From SAR202 cluster bacterium (GTDB taxonomy: Bacteria; Chloroflexota; Dehalococcoidia; Lucifugimonadales; VXLM01): a DNA stretch of 58,934 nucleotides. How positions within the stretch are numbered: the stretch's first letter is position 1; the number at the start of each line of letters is the position of its first letter. The DNA lies in NCBI GenBank assembly GCA_022448725.1, contig JAKUTR010000015.1, positions 1 to 58,934 of the forward strand, in the 5' to 3' direction. The notes under the pieces were generated by a model. It searched no databases. It was not told the origin of the DNA and was given only the letters and a program-made list of their open reading frames with translations. Made by a program: the position numbers and the translations under genes. Below, one piece after another: positions 4,189-45,829 of the stretch.

Positions 4189-4491
4189 GCCAGTTGTATG
4201 GATCGTAGATCTGAAAATCGGATCGCTGGGGTCGTGTAGCAGGTGTTCATCAAGGGGTATTCGGGTTTATATATACCCCCACTGACAATATTGGCGGCAG
4301 TATTGGTATTACTATAGGTTCATGCGATTTTTAGAGATATAGACGCACTGGCAGCCATACCAAGTATGGATACGGATGTTTTGGAACCCTTCCTAATCCT
4401 TGCTCGTCTTATAGAATCCTAGTTCCCGATTGGCAAACGGGTGATCTGGCTGCTGATAAAACCTCAGGCAGGAACTTAACGTTAAACCTGC
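4189..4491. other. Intergenic stretch between convergent genes
   Basis: No gene is seen. A hairpin GGGGTAT (4254-4260) / ATACCCC (4273-4279) with a 12-base loop lies about 70 bases after the propeller gene and may help end transcription, but it lacks a T run. The rest holds nothing I can name. Confidence 0.35.
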
Positions 4492-5772
4492 TTAGACCAC
4501 TTCAGGCGGCCTGATCTTGGTAAGTTTAATAGCTCCCACTCTCAAATTTTCCATGCGGGTTATTTCGAGTTTCAGGTCTTGGTACTCAAACTGCTCGCCC
4601 TGGTCCGGGATATGCCCAAGTATTTCCAAAACAAAACCTGCAACAGTATCGTATTCGCCTTCAGGGAGCTCGATTCCTAGCTCTGCTGTAGCCTCATCTA
4701 TGCTCATGCTTCCTTCTATTTGGAAAGTGTCAGTCCCGATGACCTCATACTCTTCTTCTGGACTGAGACCTTCCTCACCCACTCTCCCCACAACCTCTTC
4801 AAGAAGACTTTTTGCGGTAACAAGACCAGCTATCCCCCCAAACTCGTCGATCGCAACCGCCATTTGATTACCAGCTTGCCTGGTTTCTTCAAATAGTTCT
4901 GCGATTCTCTTAGTTTCCGGTACGAAGTAGACATCTCTAACAAAATCAGTTAGGGGTTCCTGATCAGTAATAGTCTTGGATGCCATTCCCTTAAGAATAT
5001 CTTTTGAAGACACGATGCCGATAACGTTATCAGTGTTTTCTTTAAAAACAGGGAAGCGAGTATGTGAATGATCAGCATAAATATCCAAGAACTCCAGTAA
5101 GGTGGTGTCTTTCTCCACAAATACTATCTCGGTTCTTGGAGTCATTACTTCGCGAACTTCTCTGTCGCCGAATCGGAATACCCTCTCAAGACGATCTGCC
5201 TCACTTGGATCAAACTCTCCTTCTGCTTCTCCAATGTCAATCAGCGTGCGGAGTTCCGCTTCAGTAATTGACGAATCGGCCCGGTCGTCACGTTTTCCTA
5301 TATCTGCTATGCGGCTTGCCCATTGGAGAACCACTACTAGCGGTAACAGAGCCAGTTCCACGATTCTTAGTGGTCGTGTGAATAGCATCGCGGTCCCAAT
5401 AGGGAAACGAACTGCTACAGTTTTAGGTATGATCTCCCCCAATAGCAGTAGGGTTGTTGTGCCTACAACAGTTGCTATTACTAGCCCAAGTCCCTGATTT
5501 TTAACCAACCCTATAATCAAAGCGGTGATTAATGCGGTGAATGCTACATTTACCAAATTATTCCCCAAAAGGATTGTTGATAAAAGCCTGCCTGGTTGTT
5601 CGAGCATGTGTGCGACCCTTCGGGCTGCCGGGACACCTTCATTTACTAGGTGCGCGAGCCTTGCAGTTCGTCGAACCGATAGGAAGGCAGCCTCTGAACT
5701 CGAAAAGAAAGCAGATAGAATAACTAGCAATACTATAACGGCGACATCTGTCGGACCCGTCCCGGTCATCAC
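4492..5772 (-). CDS. CorC/TlyC (CNNM-type) membrane protein with CBS domains
   Basis: A 426-residue hemolysin-family protein. The N-terminal DUF21/CNNM domain (about 1-190) starts with a hydrophobic helix and the typical FFSSSEAAFLS stretch, and has three to four membrane segments including GNNLVNVAFTAL. A tandem CBS pair follows (about 205-325, with MTPRTEIVFV and FPVFKENTDNVIGIVSSKDI). A CorC_HlyC domain closes it (about 340-420). The family is linked to magnesium or cobalt export and homeostasis through nucleotide-sensing CBS domains; the name hemolysin is historical. The gene is monocistronic and convergent with the propeller gene. The protein opens MMTGTG, so the second Met is an alternative start. 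Confidence 0.85.
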   Translation of the reverse strand: MMTGTGPTDVAVIVLLVILSAFFSSSEAAFLSVRRTARLAHLVNEGVPAARRVAHMLEQPGRLLSTILLGNNLVNVAFTALITALIIGLVKNQGLGLVIATVVGTTTLLLLGEIIPKTVAVRFPIGTAMLFTRPLRIVELALLPLVVVLQWASRIADIGKRDDRADSSITEAELRTLIDIGEAEGEFDPSEADRLERVFRFGDREVREVMTPRTEIVFVEKDTTLLEFLDIYADHSHTRFPVFKENTDNVIGIVSSKDILKGMASKTITDQEPLTDFVRDVYFVPETKRIAELFEETRQAGNQMAVAIDEFGGIAGLVTAKSLLEEVVGRVGEEGLSPEEEYEVIGTDTFQIEGSMSIDEATAELGIELPEGEYDTVAGFVLEILGHIPDQGEQFEYQDLKLEITRMENLRVGAIKLTKIRPPEVV

Positions 5773-5987
5773 TATCCTCCTAAGTACACTTAGAACACTC
5801 TACGTGAAATCTTCATATATATATTACAGGCAGTATCATTTAAGTTCCCCTAATCTATAGGGTGAAGTTTTCCGCTGTTTCTACCCGATCCTATACCTGG
5901 CAATCGACGTGAATGTGACATAATCAGTAGGCTTTACATATGCTACTAAGTGTGTGAACCCATTCGTCCCGTCCTCAGGAGACATAG

Positions 5988-6905
5988 GTGGACTTCGGAT
6001 TCTCGATACCTTCAGGCGGAATAAACGCAACGCCAGAGATTATTGCTCGTCTCGCCAGACGTGGTGAGGAGTTGGGGTTCGCTTACATTGGGATCCCTGA
6101 CCATATTGTTATTCCTAATAATGTAGAGTCGCGATACCCTTACAGCGAAGATGGCACGTTTAGCGGATCGGGATATATTCTTGACCAACTAACGGTAGCG
6201 TCCTTTATATCAGGACAGACCTCGAAGGCGCGTATTTTGACGTCAGTTTTGGTGCTTCCTCACAGGAGTGCTGTTTTGGCAGCCAAGATGCTAGCTTCAA
6301 TAGATGTACTTTCGAATGGCCGCTTGACTGTAGGCTGTGGGGTGGGCTGGCTGCGAGAAGAGTTCGAGGCGATTGGGGCACCGGCTTTTGACGAACGAGG
6401 ATTTGTTGCTAATGAGTATATATCCTGTTTCAAGGAGCTTTGGACGAACGATAATCCCTCATTTGATGGTGAGTACATTCAGCTGTCAGACATCATCTTT
6501 GAACCCAAACCCACCCAGAAACCGTACCCTCCAATTTGGATAGGCGGAGAGAGCCCAGCTGCACTGCGAAGGGCCGCAGAGCTTGGTGATGGATGGTATC
6601 CTCTCGGTTCCAACCCTCGTTTCCCGTTGCAAACAGCGGAACAGTTTTCAAATGCGCTTGAGAAGATTTATAGACATGGGGAGAATATAGGCCGAGACTT
6701 TACAAAGTTCGATCTAGCGTACAGTTCTCAGAGCAGTTTCACAGAGACTACAGATCAGATCGTGGAAAATATCCGTGCATTCAAAGCTGTAGGCGTGCAG
6801 CACTTGATGGTTAGTTTAGGCGCTACTTTTTCTGCTCCTGTATCGGCGACCATTGAAAGTATGGAACGCTTTGCATCCGAGATTGCTCCACAAGTTAACT
6901 CATAG
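5988..6905 (+). CDS. LLM-class flavin/F420-dependent oxidoreductase
   Basis: A 305-residue bacterial luciferase-like TIM barrel. It shows the PDHI stretch near residues 37-40, GRLTVGCGVGW followed by EEFEAIG at 111-130 (a hallmark of the family) and PPIWIGGESPAALRRAAE near 185. Members use reduced F420 or FMNH2 to reduce or oxygenate small organic substrates; which cofactor and substrate apply here cannot be told. The start is GTG at 5988, supported by CAGGAGA about 6 bases upstream and by the family N-terminus MDFGFSIP. It stands alone. Confidence 0.8.
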   Translation: MDFGFSIPSGGINATPEIIARLARRGEELGFAYIGIPDHIVIPNNVESRYPYSEDGTFSGSGYILDQLTVASFISGQTSKARILTSVLVLPHRSAVLAAKMLASIDVLSNGRLTVGCGVGWLREEFEAIGAPAFDERGFVANEYISCFKELWTNDNPSFDGEYIQLSDIIFEPKPTQKPYPPIWIGGESPAALRRAAELGDGWYPLGSNPRFPLQTAEQFSNALEKIYRHGENIGRDFTKFDLAYSSQSSFTETTDQIVENIRAFKAVGVQHLMVSLGATFSAPVSATIESMERFASEIAPQVNS

Positions 6906-7307
6906 GGATGTCTGGTTCGAAACGGGTCTATTTCAGCAACGAAGTATGACATTGTATTGATAAGCATGTTTTTATAGTAATGTAAATATCGCAATACATA
7001 AATAGACATTAATTTACGTGTAACTTACCTTATTGCGCATAAGGAATTAAGGCTGATGTGCTCTTTTGGATGATCGCATTTTCCGTTATTTGAAGGCATC
7101 GACGTTACCTAAGCTCTTTACACCAATCTATGGCCACTGTCAGCAAGTTTGTCTCTGCCCTCATTTCGATTTTGGCACGTCCCAGAAAGTTCTAGATAGA
7201 GCACGAACGTGCGGAGTGTAGAGGGTTCTCCTTATTCTCATTTGACTGGCACAAGTTGGTATTACCGTAGTATAGTTGCGGGAGCGTAGCAGCTTAGGAG
7301 GTGGGAT
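6906..7307. other. AT-rich intergenic stretch
   Basis: No gene is supported. The first half is very AT-rich; the second half presumably holds the promoter of the DUF1501 gene, but no clear -35/-10 pair with normal spacing is seen (TTGACT at 7242-7247 has TAGTAT 20 bases later). A strong AGGAGGT ribosome-binding site ends it just before ATG 7308. Confidence 0.3.
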
Positions 7308-8447
7308 ATGCCTAACGTTGCGAATACGAAGCCACCGGTTCTTGTAGTCGTTCAACTTAGTGGTGGGAACGACTTTATGAACACCGTCGTTCCATACAAT
7401 GAACCACGGTACTATGATTATCGACCTGCGCTAAGTGTTCAACCTGACAGCCTTATACCTATTGATGCTGACATCGCGTTCCATTCCAACGTCAGCCCAC
7501 TGAAGGAATTCTGGGATGCGGGTAAGCTTGCGATCGTACAGGGTGTAGGTTATCCGAACTCTAGTAGGTCTCACTTTCGGTCAATGTATATTTGGCATAC
7601 TTGTGAGCCAGATAGGATCTCAACCGAAGGATGGCTAGGTATGGCGGTCCGCGAATTTGACCCTGCGAAAGAGAATGTTCTCACTGCTGTAAATTTCGGG
7701 CGAGGACTTCCGCAGGCATTGGTTTCAAAGGGAGTTCCGGTAACTTCTGTAAGCGATCTGGACAATTATGGTTTGATGACAGGTATCTCCAGTGACGATG
7801 AAAGATACACAGCGCTTGCTCGATTCAAGGAGATGTATGCGCCCGCTGTAGGTACTGGACCAGTCATGGAATACTTAGCTGAAACTGGGCTTGGTGTTCT
7901 TGATGGCGCTGAGATTATAAAACAAGCGCCACTTATGTATCGGTCTGATGTCGAATACGCCGGAAACGAGATAGCTCAGGGTCTACGGGATGTTGCGCGT
8001 GTTCATCTCGCGGATCTTGGAACACGGATTTTCTATACCGTTCAAAACAATTATGACACCCACTCCAACCAAAATCCTACGCACGATAATCTTATTGCCG
8101 ACTTAGCAAAGGCTATAGCGGATTTCTTTCAAGACCTAGAGGACCATGACGCGGCTGATAATGTAACGATGCTCGTATTTACGGAATTCGGGCGGCGGGT
8201 TGCAGATAACGGAAGTGGTACCGACCATGGCTCAGGGGGCGGCGCATTCATCATTGGGAACAATGTGAATGGTGGTTTGTATGGGGAGTATCCTTCGCTT
8301 GACCCATTAGATCTCGTTGATGGTGAAGACCTTAAGCATACCTACGATTACCGGGGTATGTACTCGTCCATGCTTGAGCAATGGATGGGGCTTGATCCTG
8401 TCCCGATCGTGGGAGGTTCTTTCGAACAGATTCCGGTTCTTAGCTGA
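7308..8447 (+). CDS. DUF1501 domain protein
   Basis: A 379-residue protein with the DUF1501 core: VVQLSGGNDFMNTVVPY near residue 14, FHSNVSPLKEFWDAGKLAIVQGVGYP near residue 60, HFRSMYIW near residue 90, and VFTEFGRRVADNGSGTDHGSGG near residue 290. The fold belongs to the alkaline phosphatase/sulfatase superfamily; activity is unproven. Most DUF1501 proteins carry a Tat signal; this one starts almost directly with the core strand, so it looks cytoplasmic or N-terminally short. The ribosome-binding site TAGGAGGTGGG is excellent and fixes the start. Its 3' end lies 15 bases from the convergent membrane-protein gene. Confidence 0.8.
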   Translation: MPNVANTKPPVLVVVQLSGGNDFMNTVVPYNEPRYYDYRPALSVQPDSLIPIDADIAFHSNVSPLKEFWDAGKLAIVQGVGYPNSSRSHFRSMYIWHTCEPDRISTEGWLGMAVREFDPAKENVLTAVNFGRGLPQALVSKGVPVTSVSDLDNYGLMTGISSDDERYTALARFKEMYAPAVGTGPVMEYLAETGLGVLDGAEIIKQAPLMYRSDVEYAGNEIAQGLRDVARVHLADLGTRIFYTVQNNYDTHSNQNPTHDNLIADLAKAIADFFQDLEDHDAADNVTMLVFTEFGRRVADNGSGTDHGSGGGAFIIGNNVNGGLYGEYPSLDPLDLVDGEDLKHTYDYRGMYSSMLEQWMGLDPVPIVGGSFEQIPVLS

Positions 8448-39558: not shown

Positions 39559-40173
39559 ATGTCCAACGAAGCACAACAGGGTAAGCGGTTAACACCTACT
39601 CAGGCTCGCGCGGCCAGGCGTGACCGAAAGAATCGACGTACGCGCTTTAAGCGATGGTTAGCTGTTTCGGCGGTAGGATTAGTTACAGCACTCTTTATCC
39701 TTGCTCTGTTTGTTCCCAGCAATTTTGGTGGGGGTGGAGGTGGAACTACTCCCACCGGTCCTGGTGAACGGTTCGATAACCAAGGAAACACTCATATCGA
39801 ATTGGGCGGTTCGCACCCGGTCTATAACAGCAATCCGGCCACATCTGGATGGCACTATGACCAACCCGCATCTTGGGGTGTTAAGACAGAACCACTACCT
39901 CCCGAACGGTTTGTACATAACATGGAACACGGAGGTATAGTCCTACACCACAATTGTGCTGATGGGTGCGAGGATGTCGTCAACAAGATGACCGCAATTG
40001 CGAATGCTGCAAACGAGGCGATTGTGATGCCGAATCCAGAGATGGAAAGCCGGTTTGCTCTAACAGCATGGAACTTCCTATTGACTATGGAGGAATGGGA
40101 TGATGAGTTGGCGCGCGAGTTCGTCACAAACCATCTCAATTCACCCAACGCCCCTGAGTGGCAGGCAAGGTAG
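39559..40173 (+). CDS. DUF3105 membrane-anchored protein (first copy)
   Basis: A 204-residue protein. A very basic N-terminus (ARAARRDRKNRRTRFKRW) precedes one membrane helix (about 33-53) and a Gly/Thr linker. The outer DUF3105 domain then carries HPVYNSNPATSGWHYDQP, VHNMEHGGIVLHHNC and a second Cys five residues on. The conserved His and Cys suggest metal binding, but the function is unknown. A second DUF3105 gene follows after six bases, and both sit inside the purine operon. Confidence 0.78.
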   Translation: MSNEAQQGKRLTPTQARAARRDRKNRRTRFKRWLAVSAVGLVTALFILALFVPSNFGGGGGGTTPTGPGERFDNQGNTHIELGGSHPVYNSNPATSGWHYDQPASWGVKTEPLPPERFVHNMEHGGIVLHHNCADGCEDVVNKMTAIANAANEAIVMPNPEMESRFALTAWNFLLTMEEWDDELAREFVTNHLNSPNAPEWQAR

Positions 40174-40179
40174 AACCTA

Positions 40180-40719
40180 TTGCGCATGATGGGGGTGCTG
40201 CTAGTCTCATGGTTGGCAGTTTTGACTCTAGCAGGGTGCTCGTCATCAGAGGTTGAGACGCCAGAGACGAGTGACCCAGAAGCTGTGTGGGCGGTTGGTG
40301 GGGAAAAAGTGCCAATTATGCCGAGTAGGCGTCACCTTGATCCGAATGAGTCTCATGAACCATACAACTCATTCCCGGCGACATCTGGTCCACACTACCC
40401 TATTTGGTGGCAGGAATGGGGTGTCGTCGAATTTGAGATGCCGGATGAAGTTGCAGTGCACAACATGGAGCATGGGGGCGTACTCATTCGGTATGATTGT
40501 CCCCAAGGATGCGCTGAGCTTGTAACGAAACTTGTTGCGATCACTGAGCAGTTTTCAAAAGTTATTCTTAGCCCCCTGAGTAAAATGGATACGACAATTG
40601 CCCTGACGGCATGGGGTTACTTGGATAAGTTCAACGACTTCGATAGTGAAAGGATTCTCGGGTTTATTGACCAGCATTTGAATTCGCCGGAATCACCAGA
40701 ACCTCTCGTATTTCCTTAG
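40180..40719 (+). CDS. DUF3105 lipoprotein (second copy)
   Basis: A 179-residue lipoprotein with signal MMGVLLVSWLAVLTLAGC (lipobox LAGC). The DUF3105 domain repeats the motifs of the gene before it: SFPATSGPHYPIWW, VHNMEHGGVLIRYDC and LTAWGYLDKF. The tandem pair, one helix-anchored and one lipid-anchored, looks like a duplication. The start may be TTG 40180 or ATG 40186; the latter gives a cleaner signal peptide. It ends 32 bases before purS. Confidence 0.76.
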   Translation: MRMMGVLLVSWLAVLTLAGCSSSEVETPETSDPEAVWAVGGEKVPIMPSRRHLDPNESHEPYNSFPATSGPHYPIWWQEWGVVEFEMPDEVAVHNMEHGGVLIRYDCPQGCAELVTKLVAITEQFSKVILSPLSKMDTTIALTAWGYLDKFNDFDSERILGFIDQHLNSPESPEPLVFP

Positions 40720-41092: not shown

Positions 41093-41965
41093 TTAGCCCG
41101 GTAGATCCTCAAGAGATCGGTACCTAGGACGCCAACCCCACTGCTGATCCCCGAGCAGGTAAGCGTGGTATTTTTCTGGAGTGTTTTCCAGAAATTCCCT
41201 ACTAGGTTCCTGGCCGGAGTCGGCTTTAAACATCGGTGGTGTATACCCAGTGATAATGATGGCACGTTCTCGATCGCTGCGGATTTGGCCAGTTGCATGA
41301 ATTAGTGACTCAGGAAACAGAACAGTCGATCCGGCAGGGGCGACTACCTGGTGGATAAGTGACCGGTCTTGGTAGGCTGCTTTGATAATAGTTTCCTCAG
41401 GTGCTTGAATCTTGTGGCTACCTGCTATCACGACCGTGCCGCCATCGTCCGGACCAAGTTCAGTCAGATTGGTCAGGGTCTTCACAAAGTTACTATGGAA
41501 CAAATCATTACCTGTGTACGTTCCATAGCCCGGCCTCGTTCCCGTGTGGAATCCAAATTCCGGCTGGGCCTCTTGAAAGCTATTCGGGTCTCGGGAGTTA
41601 ATAATTGCTTCCGATTCTGACAGACGTACGGTACCGCCGACAACTTCCTCCGCCATGCTAACTAGTCGAGGATGTGTTACGTGATCCAATACAGCTGGAT
41701 CTGTTTCAAGAACATGTGCGAAGTGAATGTTGTATGGAGTGTAACCAGTGCAGCGGCAACCGCGTACTACCTCCCCAAGCGGGTTGTCACGAATCGACTC
41801 AAAGTCGCGTTTGAGTTTGTGGAGGGCCTCTAGTAAACCGTCGCGCTCATCCGCCGCCAGAGTGTTCTCGATTACCACATAGCCATAGACATCAAAATGA
41901 TAGCGCTGGGAGGCAGTCAAAGCGGGAAATGTTCTGGTAAAACCATTGGTACTGTCTTGAGTCAT
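41093..41965 (-). CDS. PhyH-like 2-oxoglutarate/Fe(II) oxygenase with HxG motif
   Basis: A 290-residue phytanoyl-CoA dioxygenase-family protein. The jelly-roll core has GPDDGGTVVIAGSHK (171-185) and the distal iron His in PESLIHATGQIRSDRER (H223, then Arg). The proximal motif, normally HxD, reads H140-T-G142 in GFHTGTRPGYG, so the carboxylate ligand is replaced by Gly. I start at ATG 41965, with GGAG about ten bases upstream; a TTG 16 codons earlier is the alternative. It is convergent with purS and opens the accessory region. Substrate unknown. Confidence 0.75.
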   Translation of the reverse strand: MTQDSTNGFTRTFPALTASQRYHFDVYGYVVIENTLAADERDGLLEALHKLKRDFESIRDNPLGEVVRGCRCTGYTPYNIHFAHVLETDPAVLDHVTHPRLVSMAEEVVGGTVRLSESEAIINSRDPNSFQEAQPEFGFHTGTRPGYGTYTGNDLFHSNFVKTLTNLTELGPDDGGTVVIAGSHKIQAPEETIIKAAYQDRSLIHQVVAPAGSTVLFPESLIHATGQIRSDRERAIIITGYTPPMFKADSGQEPSREFLENTPEKYHAYLLGDQQWGWRPRYRSLEDLPG

Positions 41966-42108
41966 CTGGTGTGCTCCAATATAGCTAGAAACATTAGCAG
42001 TGGGACTCTGCAACCGTCAACGGACGGTTACTTTAGACGAAATTGGAGGACGAAAGCTCCTGTCGTAGTTTGGTTGGGAGCAGTCGTTCTTTGGCTAGCG
42101 GTGAGAGT

Positions 42109-43212
42109 CTATATGGAACCGAATCCTTGTACGAAGGTCAATAATGTTTTGGGGTTTTGAATGAATATCATCTCGATATTTTCCCCAGTTACTCCGAGAG
42201 TTGCTAGGTGAGGTACGAAGGTCTCTTGCATATACGAATACCCACCCCCTCCATAATGCTTTAGGTGAGTCTTTATGCAAACATCTTGCGCTAATAACAC
42301 TTTGTCACAGTAGCCATCTTCGATCAGTTCCACCACCGCTTCAGCAGCCTGTTTCTGTACACTGACTCCTAAAGCCTCTGACTGCCCGATCAGTTCGAAC
42401 TCGACGTACACCCCCCGTTCCAAAAGTTCTTTCAGGAAGGGGAGATCGTTCGCTGACTTGTTACAGTGACCAACCACTACGCGTTCTAGATCCGCTCCTT
42501 CATCCTCGACCCAGTTCAGGACGTCATGTTTTTCTTTTTCGAAACCGGCTTCATGGAAAGTTATAGCGGCTCCGGTGATCACACTCGCACGTGCGGATGC
42601 ACGGATGCTCTTCTCTTCGTTGTGAGTAATGGGATTGCCATTCACACCGCCCTCACCAATTATCCCTGACTGAATCCCTGTATCTCCGACACCGGACGTC
42701 AGATCACTAATGATTTCTTGGGTTAGGTCTTTCTCACTACGTCGATCCATGTCATCTGGATGAAAGACCTTTTGATACCAGCCTGAGCCCATCACGATGT
42801 GAAGCCCAGTAGCGCTTGAGACACGCTTGAGTGCTGCGGGGTCTCGTTTCAGACCAATGTTGGTTACATCGACAATCGTCCCGCCTCCACGTCTTTTGAA
42901 CTCTAGTGTTTCGTGGATAGCTAGTTGCTCGTCCGCGAGAACCCATTGATCCGACACTGGAGCTAGTTCATTAGGGAGATTAAGGTTTCCTATTGAAACA
43001 GGTGATCCCCATTGGGCTAGTTCTGTTGCGGCGAAATCTTTGGTTGTGGAGATTGGTTGGGAACGGCCTGGAACCGCTATGTCCCGTCCATGAGGTAGAT
43101 GATATCGCCGAAGGTCAATGAACAGATGCTCGTGCATCAGGGTGAATCCAAGATCCTCAGGGGATATTGGCCCGTGCACTGTCATTACCTTACCGGCAAT
43201 GTTTTCGGTCAC
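42109..43212 (-). CDS. Phosphotriesterase-family hydrolase (downstream copy)
   Basis: A 367-residue TIM-barrel amidohydrolase of the phosphotriesterase family. All metal ligands can be placed: H27/H29 in LMHEHL, E187 in IIGEGGV, H220, H249 in VVGHCN and D310 in LLAQDVC. Glu at the bridging position replaces carboxylated Lys, as in E. coli PHP. Known activities include lactonase, phosphotriesterase and amidase; which applies is unclear. The ATG overlaps the TGA of the upstream paralogue (43209-43212), so the two are coupled. Confidence 0.82.
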   Translation of the reverse strand: MTENIAGKVMTVHGPISPEDLGFTLMHEHLFIDLRRYHLPHGRDIAVPGRSQPISTTKDFAATELAQWGSPVSIGNLNLPNELAPVSDQWVLADEQLAIHETLEFKRRGGGTIVDVTNIGLKRDPAALKRVSSATGLHIVMGSGWYQKVFHPDDMDRRSEKDLTQEIISDLTSGVGDTGIQSGIIGEGGVNGNPITHNEEKSIRASARASVITGAAITFHEAGFEKEKHDVLNWVEDEGADLERVVVGHCNKSANDLPFLKELLERGVYVEFELIGQSEALGVSVQKQAAEAVVELIEDGYCDKVLLAQDVCIKTHLKHYGGGGYSYMQETFVPHLATLGVTGENIEMIFIQNPKTLLTFVQGFGSI

Positions 43213-44396
43213 TTTTGGCTGGGAGGATCGAAAGGCAGAATGCGTGCCGGGTTTTCCACCATCATCTTTTCTGTTTGGAGACGTGTCACCCCGTTTTCTC
43301 GTAAATGAGGTAGGAATTTTTCCGGGATGAAGCTATAGCCTGCACCACCGTAGTGTTGGAGATGTACCTTTAAGCACACATCGTGAGACAGGAGAAGCCT
43401 ATTCTCGAATCCTGCACCCAGTAGCTCTGGGATAGCCTTAGCTGCCAGCGATGTTGGGCTTTCGGTAAGTGTCGTTGCCCGCCCGAGGAGGTCGAATTGG
43501 AGATACACACCTCGTTCCAGGAGTTCGATCATTAGGTCAGGATCTTCAGCGATTTCATCTGAGTGACCAAGTACCACTCGATCCAAATTGGCCCCCTCCT
43601 CACCCAGAATGTTTAGGGTCTCTAGACGCTCTCTGCCGGTACCACCCCTGTGGAATGATATGGCTGCCCCAGTTAGCCTACTGGCTCTGGCAGCGGCTTT
43701 TATACTTTTTGTTTCATTGGGTCCCAAGGGATCCCCGTTCACCCCGACCTCTCCGATGATTCCAGAGCGAATACCGGTATCGCCGACTCCGGTGACTATG
43801 TCGGCGACGATTTCGTTGGTCAACTCTTCCACGGTACGATCGTCCATATCTTCTGGGTGGTACACACTGTGGTAGTACCCCGTTCCCATAACGATGTTTA
43901 ACCCGGTACGTTCCGAGACTCGACGCATTGATTCGGGGGCACGTTTCAACCCGATACTCGTTACCTCGACCACTGTACTGCCGCCCAGGTTTTTGAATTC
44001 CAGGATTTCTTTGGCTGCGACGTCCTCATCAGCCAGGACATAATTGTCCGCGATTGGCCCCATATCACGTGCTATATGTAAGTTGCCTAGTTGCACTTTT
44101 GCTTCATACACGGCAAGTTGAGTAGCCGGGAAGTCCTCGGTTGTTAGGATAGGTTCGGTTCGTCCCTCCAATTCCACGTTGATTGCATGCGGGAGATGGG
44201 TTTTACGAAGATCCACAAATAGGTGTTCGTGCATCAAGGTCATCCCAAGTTGGTTTGGGGATAGTGGCCCTCTAACTGCTAAAACATGGCCAGCCATATT
44301 TGGGATTGCGTCCGGGGCAACCCACCGGGACCTATCACTCTTGCGCAAATCGGCCAGATTCTTATTGTTTTGTTCACCAAAATAGATGTTTGACAT
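43209..44396 (-). CDS. Phosphotriesterase-family hydrolase (upstream copy)
   Basis: A 395-residue paralogue of the gene that follows it, sharing long stretches such as LMHEHLF, DMD(D/R)R(T/S) and LERGVY. Ligands are H56/H58, E216, H249, H278 and D339. It has about 28 extra residues at the N-terminus before the domain (NMAGHVLAVRGPLSPNQLG). The pair arose by tandem duplication and may form a heteromer or act on related substrates. It is divergent from the 44567 gene. Confidence 0.82.
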   Translation of the reverse strand: MSNIYFGEQNNKNLADLRKSDRSRWVAPDAIPNMAGHVLAVRGPLSPNQLGMTLMHEHLFVDLRKTHLPHAINVELEGRTEPILTTEDFPATQLAVYEAKVQLGNLHIARDMGPIADNYVLADEDVAAKEILEFKNLGGSTVVEVTSIGLKRAPESMRRVSERTGLNIVMGTGYYHSVYHPEDMDDRTVEELTNEIVADIVTGVGDTGIRSGIIGEVGVNGDPLGPNETKSIKAAARASRLTGAAISFHRGGTGRERLETLNILGEEGANLDRVVLGHSDEIAEDPDLMIELLERGVYLQFDLLGRATTLTESPTSLAAKAIPELLGAGFENRLLLSHDVCLKVHLQHYGGAGYSFIPEKFLPHLRENGVTRLQTEKMMVENPARILPFDPPSQK

Positions 44397-44566
44397 TAAA
44401 GTGTTACCAGAGTCAAAGTTGATTTTCGGTTAGGCTCGACCAATAAATGAAGTCTTAGTTCTTCACTCTCTGGTGCTGATCCATAGGTCACAGCAAGTAT
44501 ATAGAACATGTGGTGTGTGTCATAATCGCATCCCGCTGGTAATGTGATATTCCGGAAGGGGCAAAT

Positions 44567-45829
44567 TTGGCTCAGCGTAAGAAGATAGCAGCTATCCTAA
44601 CGGCCTTTTTCCCGGCTGCCCACGGATCCCATGCAGATCTCGTTGTGTCCAAGCTCGCACGAGGCTTTCCTACAACAGAAGGTCTTATTGACCCCCAGGT
44701 TGACCTTGTATCGATGTATATTGATCAACCTCACTGGACGAACCTGGGGCAGGAGTTAGCTCAAGAATACGGTATCGAGATATTCGAAAGTATTCGAGGA
44801 GCATTGACCATGAAGCCGCAGCAGAGACCTGGACACTGGACCCCCGATAACGAAGCCCAAGCTGGAGAGTTGGCGGTTGATGGAGTGATGATTGTAGCTG
44901 AACATGGTGACTATGCTAGTAATGAACAGCAACGTCATCTCTACCCGCGCAGATACTTTTTTGAACAGGTCTGCGGAGTGTTTGCGACTTCAGGTCGGTC
45001 GGTACCTGTTTTCAATGATAAACACCTTTCTTACAACTGGGACGATTCATTATGGATGTATAAACGAGCTCAGGAACTAGAAATACCATTTATGGCTGGC
45101 TCCGCTCTGCCGCTTTGTTCCCGAGGACCGGAACTTGAACACGAAATTGGCACTCCCATCGATGAAGCTCTTTCCATTGGATACATTCATCCTTTCTTGT
45201 ACGGGCTTGACTCATATGGTTTTCATAGCTTGGAGGGATTGCAATGTATGGTGGAGCGACGCAATGGAGGCGAGACAGGTATACGGTCTGTGCAGTGTTT
45301 AGAGGGAGATGACGTATGGGCTGCTGGTAAAGAGGGAGCTTGGTCACAACCTCTTGCTCTAGCAGCAGAGAGCCGTATAGAAGCCTTACCTCCAATGAGG
45401 GCATACGGGGCGGGTGATGGACTGACTGATTCGCCGGTGCCTCTCAAAGAGCCAGGCCGCATGGAGGACAACTGTCGCAGCCCAATTGTTTTTATTCTCG
45501 AATACAACGATGGTCTTCGAGCTTCCACTCTCCTACTTCCGGGACATCTCCGTGCAAATGGATATGCCGCACGCGTGGACGGAGAAATTCTCAGTACTGG
45601 GTTCATTCGAACTGGGAACCAGGATGAACCGTTTAGTTACCAAGCGATGAACATTCAGCAGATGTTTATAACCGGTCAGCCACAGTACCCGGTGGAGCGC
45701 ACATTACTCGTTAGCGGGGCCCTGGATGCTTTAATGGAATCCAAGCACAACGGCCACGTTCGAGTGGAAACCCCACACTTGGATGTAACGTACAGGCCAC
45801 TCGAAACAGATCCGATAAGGATACGTTAA
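44567..45829 (+). CDS. Conserved hypothetical protein, 420 aa (EHGDYA motif family)
   Basis: A soluble protein starting with a Rossmann-like strand (KKIAAILTAFFPAAHGSHAD), then LAVDGVMIVAEHGDYASNEQ (about 103-122), YPRRYFFEQV and VFNDKHLSYNWDD, and a second half with HSLEGLQCMVERRNGGETG. I recall relatives in Planctomycetes and marine Chloroflexota that carry no named function; they tend to sit beside oxygenases and dehydrogenases. The start is TTG 44567, supported by GGAAGGGG five bases upstream. It is probably part of the same degradative set as its neighbours, but this is inference. Confidence 0.6.
   Translation: MAQRKKIAAILTAFFPAAHGSHADLVVSKLARGFPTTEGLIDPQVDLVSMYIDQPHWTNLGQELAQEYGIEIFESIRGALTMKPQQRPGHWTPDNEAQAGELAVDGVMIVAEHGDYASNEQQRHLYPRRYFFEQVCGVFATSGRSVPVFNDKHLSYNWDDSLWMYKRAQELEIPFMAGSALPLCSRGPELEHEIGTPIDEALSIGYIHPFLYGLDSYGFHSLEGLQCMVERRNGGETGIRSVQCLEGDDVWAAGKEGAWSQPLALAAESRIEALPPMRAYGAGDGLTDSPVPLKEPGRMEDNCRSPIVFILEYNDGLRASTLLLPGHLRANGYAARVDGEILSTGFIRTGNQDEPFSYQAMNIQQMFITGQPQYPVERTLLVSGALDALMESKHNGHVRVETPHLDVTYRPLETDPIRIR

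Follow-up and report, generated by a model that had tools for sequence, protein, structure and literature searches.

In the window, by which we mean the whole analysed stretch of 58,934 nucleotides from a SAR202 cluster bacterium, two genes for proteins of the phosphotriesterase (PTE) family overlap on the minus strand and stand divergent from a gene for a 420-residue protein with an EHGDYA motif. The features, in order of position, are as follows.

41093-42013, minus strand: PhyH-family oxygenase gene, 306 aa, downstream of PTE2 and on the same strand (Pfam PhyH, E 2.8e-15)
42109-43212, minus strand: PTE2, 367 aa, GTG start, second gene of the pair (Pfam PTE, E 3.1e-67)
43209-44396, minus strand: PTE1, 395 aa, ATG start, first gene of the coupled pair (Pfam PTE, E 1.3e-69)
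44397-44566, no strand: divergent intergenic region of 170 bp, from the PTE1 start (44396) to the TTG of the 420-aa gene
44567-45829, plus strand: 420-aa EHGDYA gene, TTG start, divergent from PTE1 and PTE2

The gene positions, the four-base overlap between PTE1 and PTE2 (GTGA), the 170-bp divergent spacer and the PhyH neighbour, all described in an earlier note on this DNA, are borne out by the coordinates and the Pfam assignments. Near relatives of the 420-aa protein start at about the same residue as the TTG at 44567, and the frame is a real gene, because homologues that share its motifs occur across many phyla. A shared operator in the 170-bp region was considered and rejected, since the region contains no inverted repeat of length 8 or more and its one promoter-like match, a sigma-70-like sequence on the minus strand (44523-44496, 10/12), compares with 0.4 expected.

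Both hydrolases are full-length members of Pfam PTE (PF02126), scoring 227.6 and 235.3 bits against a gathering score of 22.4 and covering positions 1–297 and 2–297 of the 298-position profile, and they are 52.7% identical to each other over 357 aa. The nearest solved relative of both is 3k2g, a resiniferatoxin-binding, phosphotriesterase-related protein (E 8.5e-56 for PTE1 and 1.2e-58 for PTE2), followed in both cases by 9efa, also a phosphotriesterase-related protein. The metal ligands H,H,E,H,H,D are complete in PTE1 and PTE2 and are kept in 44/44 rows of a PTE alignment that omits the own-genome PTE on contig C23 (L164) and in which some genes appear in two rows; with all ligands kept in the aligned rows, neither copy in the window looks dead. 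We read PTE1 and PTE2 as co-translated binuclear-metal hydrolases, both of them probably active. As in 3k2g and the PTER/PHP branch of PF02126, the fold family, the HxH motif, a bridging Glu (not Lys), the two His and the Asp, and a domain of ~350 aa are all present, but the window differs in having two overlapping paralogous genes and in lacking the PTER substrate residues. According to passages in PMC11374699, PTER hydrolyses N-acetyltaurine, and R204, R233 and H300 are the residues tied to this substrate. Together with the rank of 9efa among the solved matches, this activity would favour an assignment of PTE1 and PTE2 as PTER-type N-acyl-taurine or N-acyl-amino-acid amidases, but 3k2g outscores 9efa, and the equivalents of the three residues are Gly, Glu and Cys in PTE1 and Gly, Lys and Cys in PTE2, in a mapping made by motif and with numbering that is partly provisional. 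N-acetyltaurine was rejected as a substrate because all three residues are replaced in both proteins, and the amidase assignment as a whole is highly improbable. Nor do the results favour an organophosphate, a carbamate or a lactone, the candidates named in the earlier note, as the substrate.

The history of the pair was followed in a sample of 250 genomes of the order, in which G000 is the window's own genome. PTE2 has matches at 1e-90 in 19 of these, while PTE1 and PTE2 occur together only in G000 and in G039, a member of another family of the order, where the two genes stand in the same order and with the same GTGA overlap (L115, 734-1837 and 1834-3081). The coupling of the two paralogues, one of the proposals of the earlier note, is thus kept in a second family. 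In a tree of 37 PTE proteins of the order, PTE1 groups with a G039 protein (support 100/100) and PTE2 with proteins of G039 and G047 (100/100). Since the two are not exclusive sisters in this tree, the duplication is old, and it predates the divergence of the order's families. Sequence identities to G039 are 70% for PTE1 and 67% for PTE2, matching the 67% of the housekeeping lyase PurB, which fits vertical descent; a recent horizontal transfer of the pair is not favoured for the same reason. Adjoining PTE genes are also seen in other subfamilies, for example on G043:C48, G041:C48 and G050:C11.

Retention of the four-base overlap and of the gene order in two families would suit an obligate heteromeric hydrolase made up of PTE1 and PTE2 chains, one of them perhaps tuned for binding over catalysis, and so would the residue that precedes the metal Asp, which is Gln in PTE2 of the window, G039 and G047, and His in PTE1 of the window and G039. 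Such a heteromer is nevertheless unlikely, as each protein retains every metal ligand, the PTE2 of G047 stands without a PTE1, and Gln in this position is also common among other PTEs. It is weighed here on its own, being compatible both with a route shared with the 420-aa enzyme and with a chance neighbourhood.

For the 420-aa protein, no match was found in Pfam up to E 10, in NCBIfam at 1e-3 or, by single-sequence search, in the PDB at E 1, and a search of 40 family members for Pfam GFO_IDH_MocA domains at E 10 gave none, only weak matches to unrelated families. The description as an unnamed family is therefore correct at the level of sequence, but the fold is a known one. All the rows shown from a Foldseek search with the AlphaFold2 model (pLDDT 90.6, pTM 0.91) are oxidoreductases of the Gfo/Idh/MocA type or relatives of these (best E 2.6e-14), and the best VIA-align match is 6nor_C, with Z 26.1 and rmsd 3.1 over 287 aligned residues, spanning model residues 2–404. 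The Rossmann N-domain and the C-terminal open-sheet domain are both present in the model.

One scan of genome contigs yielded 68 distant loci of the family, spanning Acidobacteriota, Planctomycetota, Latescibacterota, Poribacteria, Verrucomicrobiota and others. Residues that are invariant in a 40-member alignment include H22, E112-H113-G114, Y116, P127-R128, D151-K152-H153, H220, E223, Q226, R231-R232 and D315-G316; EHGxY and DKH are each found in 53/53 proteins, and (F/Y)HxxE in 52/53. The DKH motif aligns with EKP/DKP, the catalytic Lys motif, in three sequence comparisons, with RgNanOx (6z3b) and the window's two canonical Gfo/Idh genes as counterparts, each of them weak alone (hhalign probabilities of 2% and 22%, HMMER E 0.16) but concordant with the fold. 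The confident fold and the DKH alignment together identify the family as a divergent offshoot of a fold already known. The GxGxxG sequence after strand 1, present in both canonical Gfo/Idh genes of the window, is found at this loop in 0/53 proteins (L004 is truncated before the loop), and two pattern matches, in L021 and L028, fall after helix 1 by alignment. In most rows the loop reads T-x-Y/F ... S-H-A. Going by the model, we read the 420-aa protein as a divergent Gfo/Idh/MocA-fold enzyme in which the usual dinucleotide loop appears to be rebuilt. A Rossmann domain of this kind may still bind NAD without GxGxxG, as AlphaFold gives the fold and not the use of a cofactor. Compared with GenD2 (6nor), myo-inositol dehydrogenase (4mie) and KanD2 (6jw6), the likeness extends over the whole length of the fold (Z 24.7–26.1) and to the Lys motif, with DKH in place of EKP, but the family lacks GxGxxG, has its own EHGxY, DKH and (F/Y)HxxE motifs, and is unrecognised by Pfam and NCBIfam. 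A literature search for MocA proteins that have lost the glycine loop, or that occur with a phosphotriesterase or with a membrane dipeptidase, found none. In 26/67 loci the family is present as two or three adjacent copies, and in a tree of the 67/68 loci with a near-full-length copy (L069 was dropped), the two main tandem copies form two well-supported clades, that is, they are old paralogues kept together.

The surroundings of the distant loci were surveyed by a Pfam scan of ORFs within 1.5 kb, with families not preselected, covering 180 of the 221 ORFs listed (91 + 89; 41 were left out by hand, mostly overlapping or antisense), with ORFs at least 3.5 kb away as a far control (118 drawn from 253, 116 scanned). 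Peptidase_M19 accounts for 9/91 and 1/89 of the near ORFs (10/180) and AP_endonuc_2 for 6/91 and 2/89 (8/180), against at most one each among the 116 far ORFs. The second near batch consists mostly of Planctomycetes and tandem loci, and other families are commoner there, such as FAD oxidoreductase (5/89). With a local profile, M19 is found to adjoin the family directly in 10/68 loci (292 kb of near sequence), and the same profile finds none in the 445,037 bp lying further than 2.5 kb away. In nine of the ten, M19 and the 420-aa gene are divergent, like PTE1 and the 420-aa gene in the window. In the tree, these nine loci form one acidobacterial group, which implies few independent events, and L012, with a co-directional M19 gene, is separate; 58/68 distant loci are without M19 nearby. 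Four distant loci have a xylose-isomerase-like gene within ~600 bp of the family. Pairs of Gfo/Idh/MocA and AP_endonuc_2 genes are known from sugar and inositol catabolism, and these four loci resemble them, whereas the partner is a PTE pair in the window and M19 or Amidohydro_2 elsewhere. Because the Amidohydro_2 counts include weak cross-hits of M19 proteins, the argument rests on M19; L107 1-585, which by eye resembles an amidohydrolase, has no Pfam match and was not counted. The neighbours of the family are thus not random, and the commoner partner is an M19 dipeptidase.

Within the order, the family is detected at 1e-60 in 11/250 genomes, with 14 rows listed. A Pfam-confirmed metal hydrolase lies within ~2 kb of the 420-aa gene in 5/14 rows, as a raw count over flanks that for several loci extended just ~1.5 kb. 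These five are:

Window: PTE pair, divergent
G039:C45: PTE of another subfamily, ~550 bp from a 420-aa paralogue
G047: Amidohydro_2
G015: M19, convergent, 1 base apart
G033: M19

The M19 proteins of this order are ~26% identical to those of the acidobacterial group. The window type of the 420-aa gene is found in G000, G022 and G039 (support 100/99), and G022, which has the closest orthologue (75%), is without a PTE of the window clade. Six of the 250 genomes (G000, G047, G033, G027, G039 and G015) are shared between the 19 with the PTE clade and the 11 with the 420-aa family, which corresponds to a hypergeometric probability of 3e-5, or 2e-4 without the own genome, uncorrected for relatedness. 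The co-occurrence on which the earlier note had staked its proposal accordingly stands for genome sharing, which is above expectation, but not for the 68 distant loci, where fetched flanks of up to 8 kb contain no PTE near the family. Nor does the set behave as an inherited cluster. The PTE pair faces the 420-aa gene in one genome only. Its divergent neighbour in G039 is a DUF1800 gene, with the 420-aa orthologue carried on a different contig, which means that the cluster is not conserved in its exact form; in the three other genomes of the genus there is no PTE2 match at 1e-80 and the pair is missing. A conserved PTE-PTE-EHGDYA cluster was rejected on these grounds, as just two of the 250 genomes have both PTEs and their divergent neighbours differ.

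The PhyH gene had also been counted in the proposed set. The own genome contains 7 PTE and 21 PhyH genes, and the two families lie close together in three places, at the pair (C7), on C45 (64868/66141) and on C23 (27710/24616). In six other near-complete genomes, PTE-PhyH proximity is not enriched (1/24, p 0.38); the own genome was left out of this test because it is split into 75 contigs. A general PTE-PhyH pairing, suggestive at home and at chance level in the six genomes, was rejected. G015 has a co-directional PhyH gene immediately upstream of its 420-aa gene, which with the M19 gene gives the hydrolase/420-aa/PhyH grouping one parallel; membership of PhyH in the module is uncertain. PTE genes beside DUF1501/DUF1800 were seen in L115, L123 and L131, and this pairing was likewise rejected (DUF1501 1/24, p 0.34 in the six genomes). 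As for published work, the only paper found for SAR202 or Chloroflexota with phosphotriesterase deals with thermal adaptation in Anaerolineaceae. Lactone opening and phytanoyl-CoA dioxygenase are mentioned in passages of the SAR202 paper PMC5395668; in a word search of two other SAR202 papers, PMC6946804 contains none of the terms and PMC10444878 none but glycoside hydrolases, mentioned once.

These observations bear on whether the genes belong together at all. The PTE pair could have a role of its own, as a maintained duplication, and its place next to a widespread gene of the Gfo/Idh/MocA fold could be accidental, in a genome with many catabolic paralogues and with no pathway in common. The 7 PTE and 21 PhyH genes are in keeping with this, as are the chance-level PTE-PhyH and PTE-DUF1501 proximities and the separation of the pair from the 420-aa gene in G039, which alone besides G000 combines PTE1 and PTE2 with a 420-aa gene of the window type. 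The non-random placement of the 420-aa family beside metal hydrolases generally argues against it, as does the PTE of another subfamily close to the 420-aa paralogue on G039:C45. A chance neighbourhood is a serious contender, at somewhat under even odds.

We see two conserved but separable units in the locus: the coupled hydrolases, and an enzyme of the Gfo/Idh/MocA fold with a tendency to adjoin metal hydrolases. The best single explanation, with chance neighbours close behind, is that PTE1/PTE2 and the 420-aa enzyme share one catabolic route, to which we assign a probability of about 0.5; the common pathway and regulation are what we infer. In such a route, PTE1 and PTE2 would hydrolyse a bond of the ester, lactone or N-acyl kind, and the 420-aa protein would act on the polar part of the substrate, sugar- or hydroxy-acid-like, before or after cleavage. 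The hydrolase slot would be exchangeable, and relatives would fill it with an M19 dipeptidase, Amidohydro_2, a PTE of another subfamily or a xylose-isomerase-like protein. A wider proposal, rather doubtful at present, is that the family forms a Gfo/Idh/MocA-fold branch without the classical NAD loop that serves, in several phyla and often as two tandem copies, in a two-part catabolic module whose other part is exchangeable, being a metal hydrolase (M19, Amidohydro_2 or PTE) or a xylose-isomerase-like enzyme; the PTE1-PTE2 pair of the window would then be a local form in which the hydrolase is doubled instead.

The coupled PTE genes, as a clean pair of old paralogues, lend themselves to the question of how specificities come to be divided within the PTE family. 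The 420-aa family, found in many phyla and unrecognised by curated libraries, can now be described by its fold, its invariant residues and the kind of gene that recurs as its partner, by which its chemistry becomes testable. If it works without the classical NAD loop, it would extend what the Gfo/Idh/MocA scaffold can do.

The SAR202 genome that holds the window carries a second member of the 420-residue, EHGDYA-motif family, which is 60% identical to the window copy, and no hydrolase was seen within its 1.5-kb flanks. In another genome of the same order (G015), the family member may belong to a compact module, where it is convergent with an M19 (membrane dipeptidase) gene, with one base between them, and is preceded by a PhyH oxygenase gene and an overlapping cupin-like gene.

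Contig C23 (locus L002), 65826-66989: second 420-residue family member
L166 (G015), 4304-8070: M19, 420-residue family, PhyH and cupin-like genes

Both substrate arginines of the N-acetyltaurine hydrolase PTER are kept in other phosphotriesterase-family (PTE) proteins, with Phe or Cys in the place of His300. The proteins are possible N-acyl-amino-acid amidases.

Own genome, contig C45 (L161, L162)
Own genome, contig C56 (L163)
L131, 8615-9679

At three loci, PTE genes are adjoined by DUF1800, DUF1501 and NHL-repeat-like genes; across six genomes, the closeness of DUF1501 to PTE genes was not above chance.

L115, 3171-5807
L123, 5212-7829
L131, 2131-8406

A DUF3105 gene pair, adjacent in tandem, lies at 39559-40719 of the window, just downstream of purine-biosynthesis genes.

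Side-by-side copies of the 420-residue family, two or three each, occur at 26 of the 67 distant loci in the tree (L047, L054, L057, L060 and 22 others). The two main tandem copies are old paralogues in this tree, which suggests a heteromer or a two-step role.
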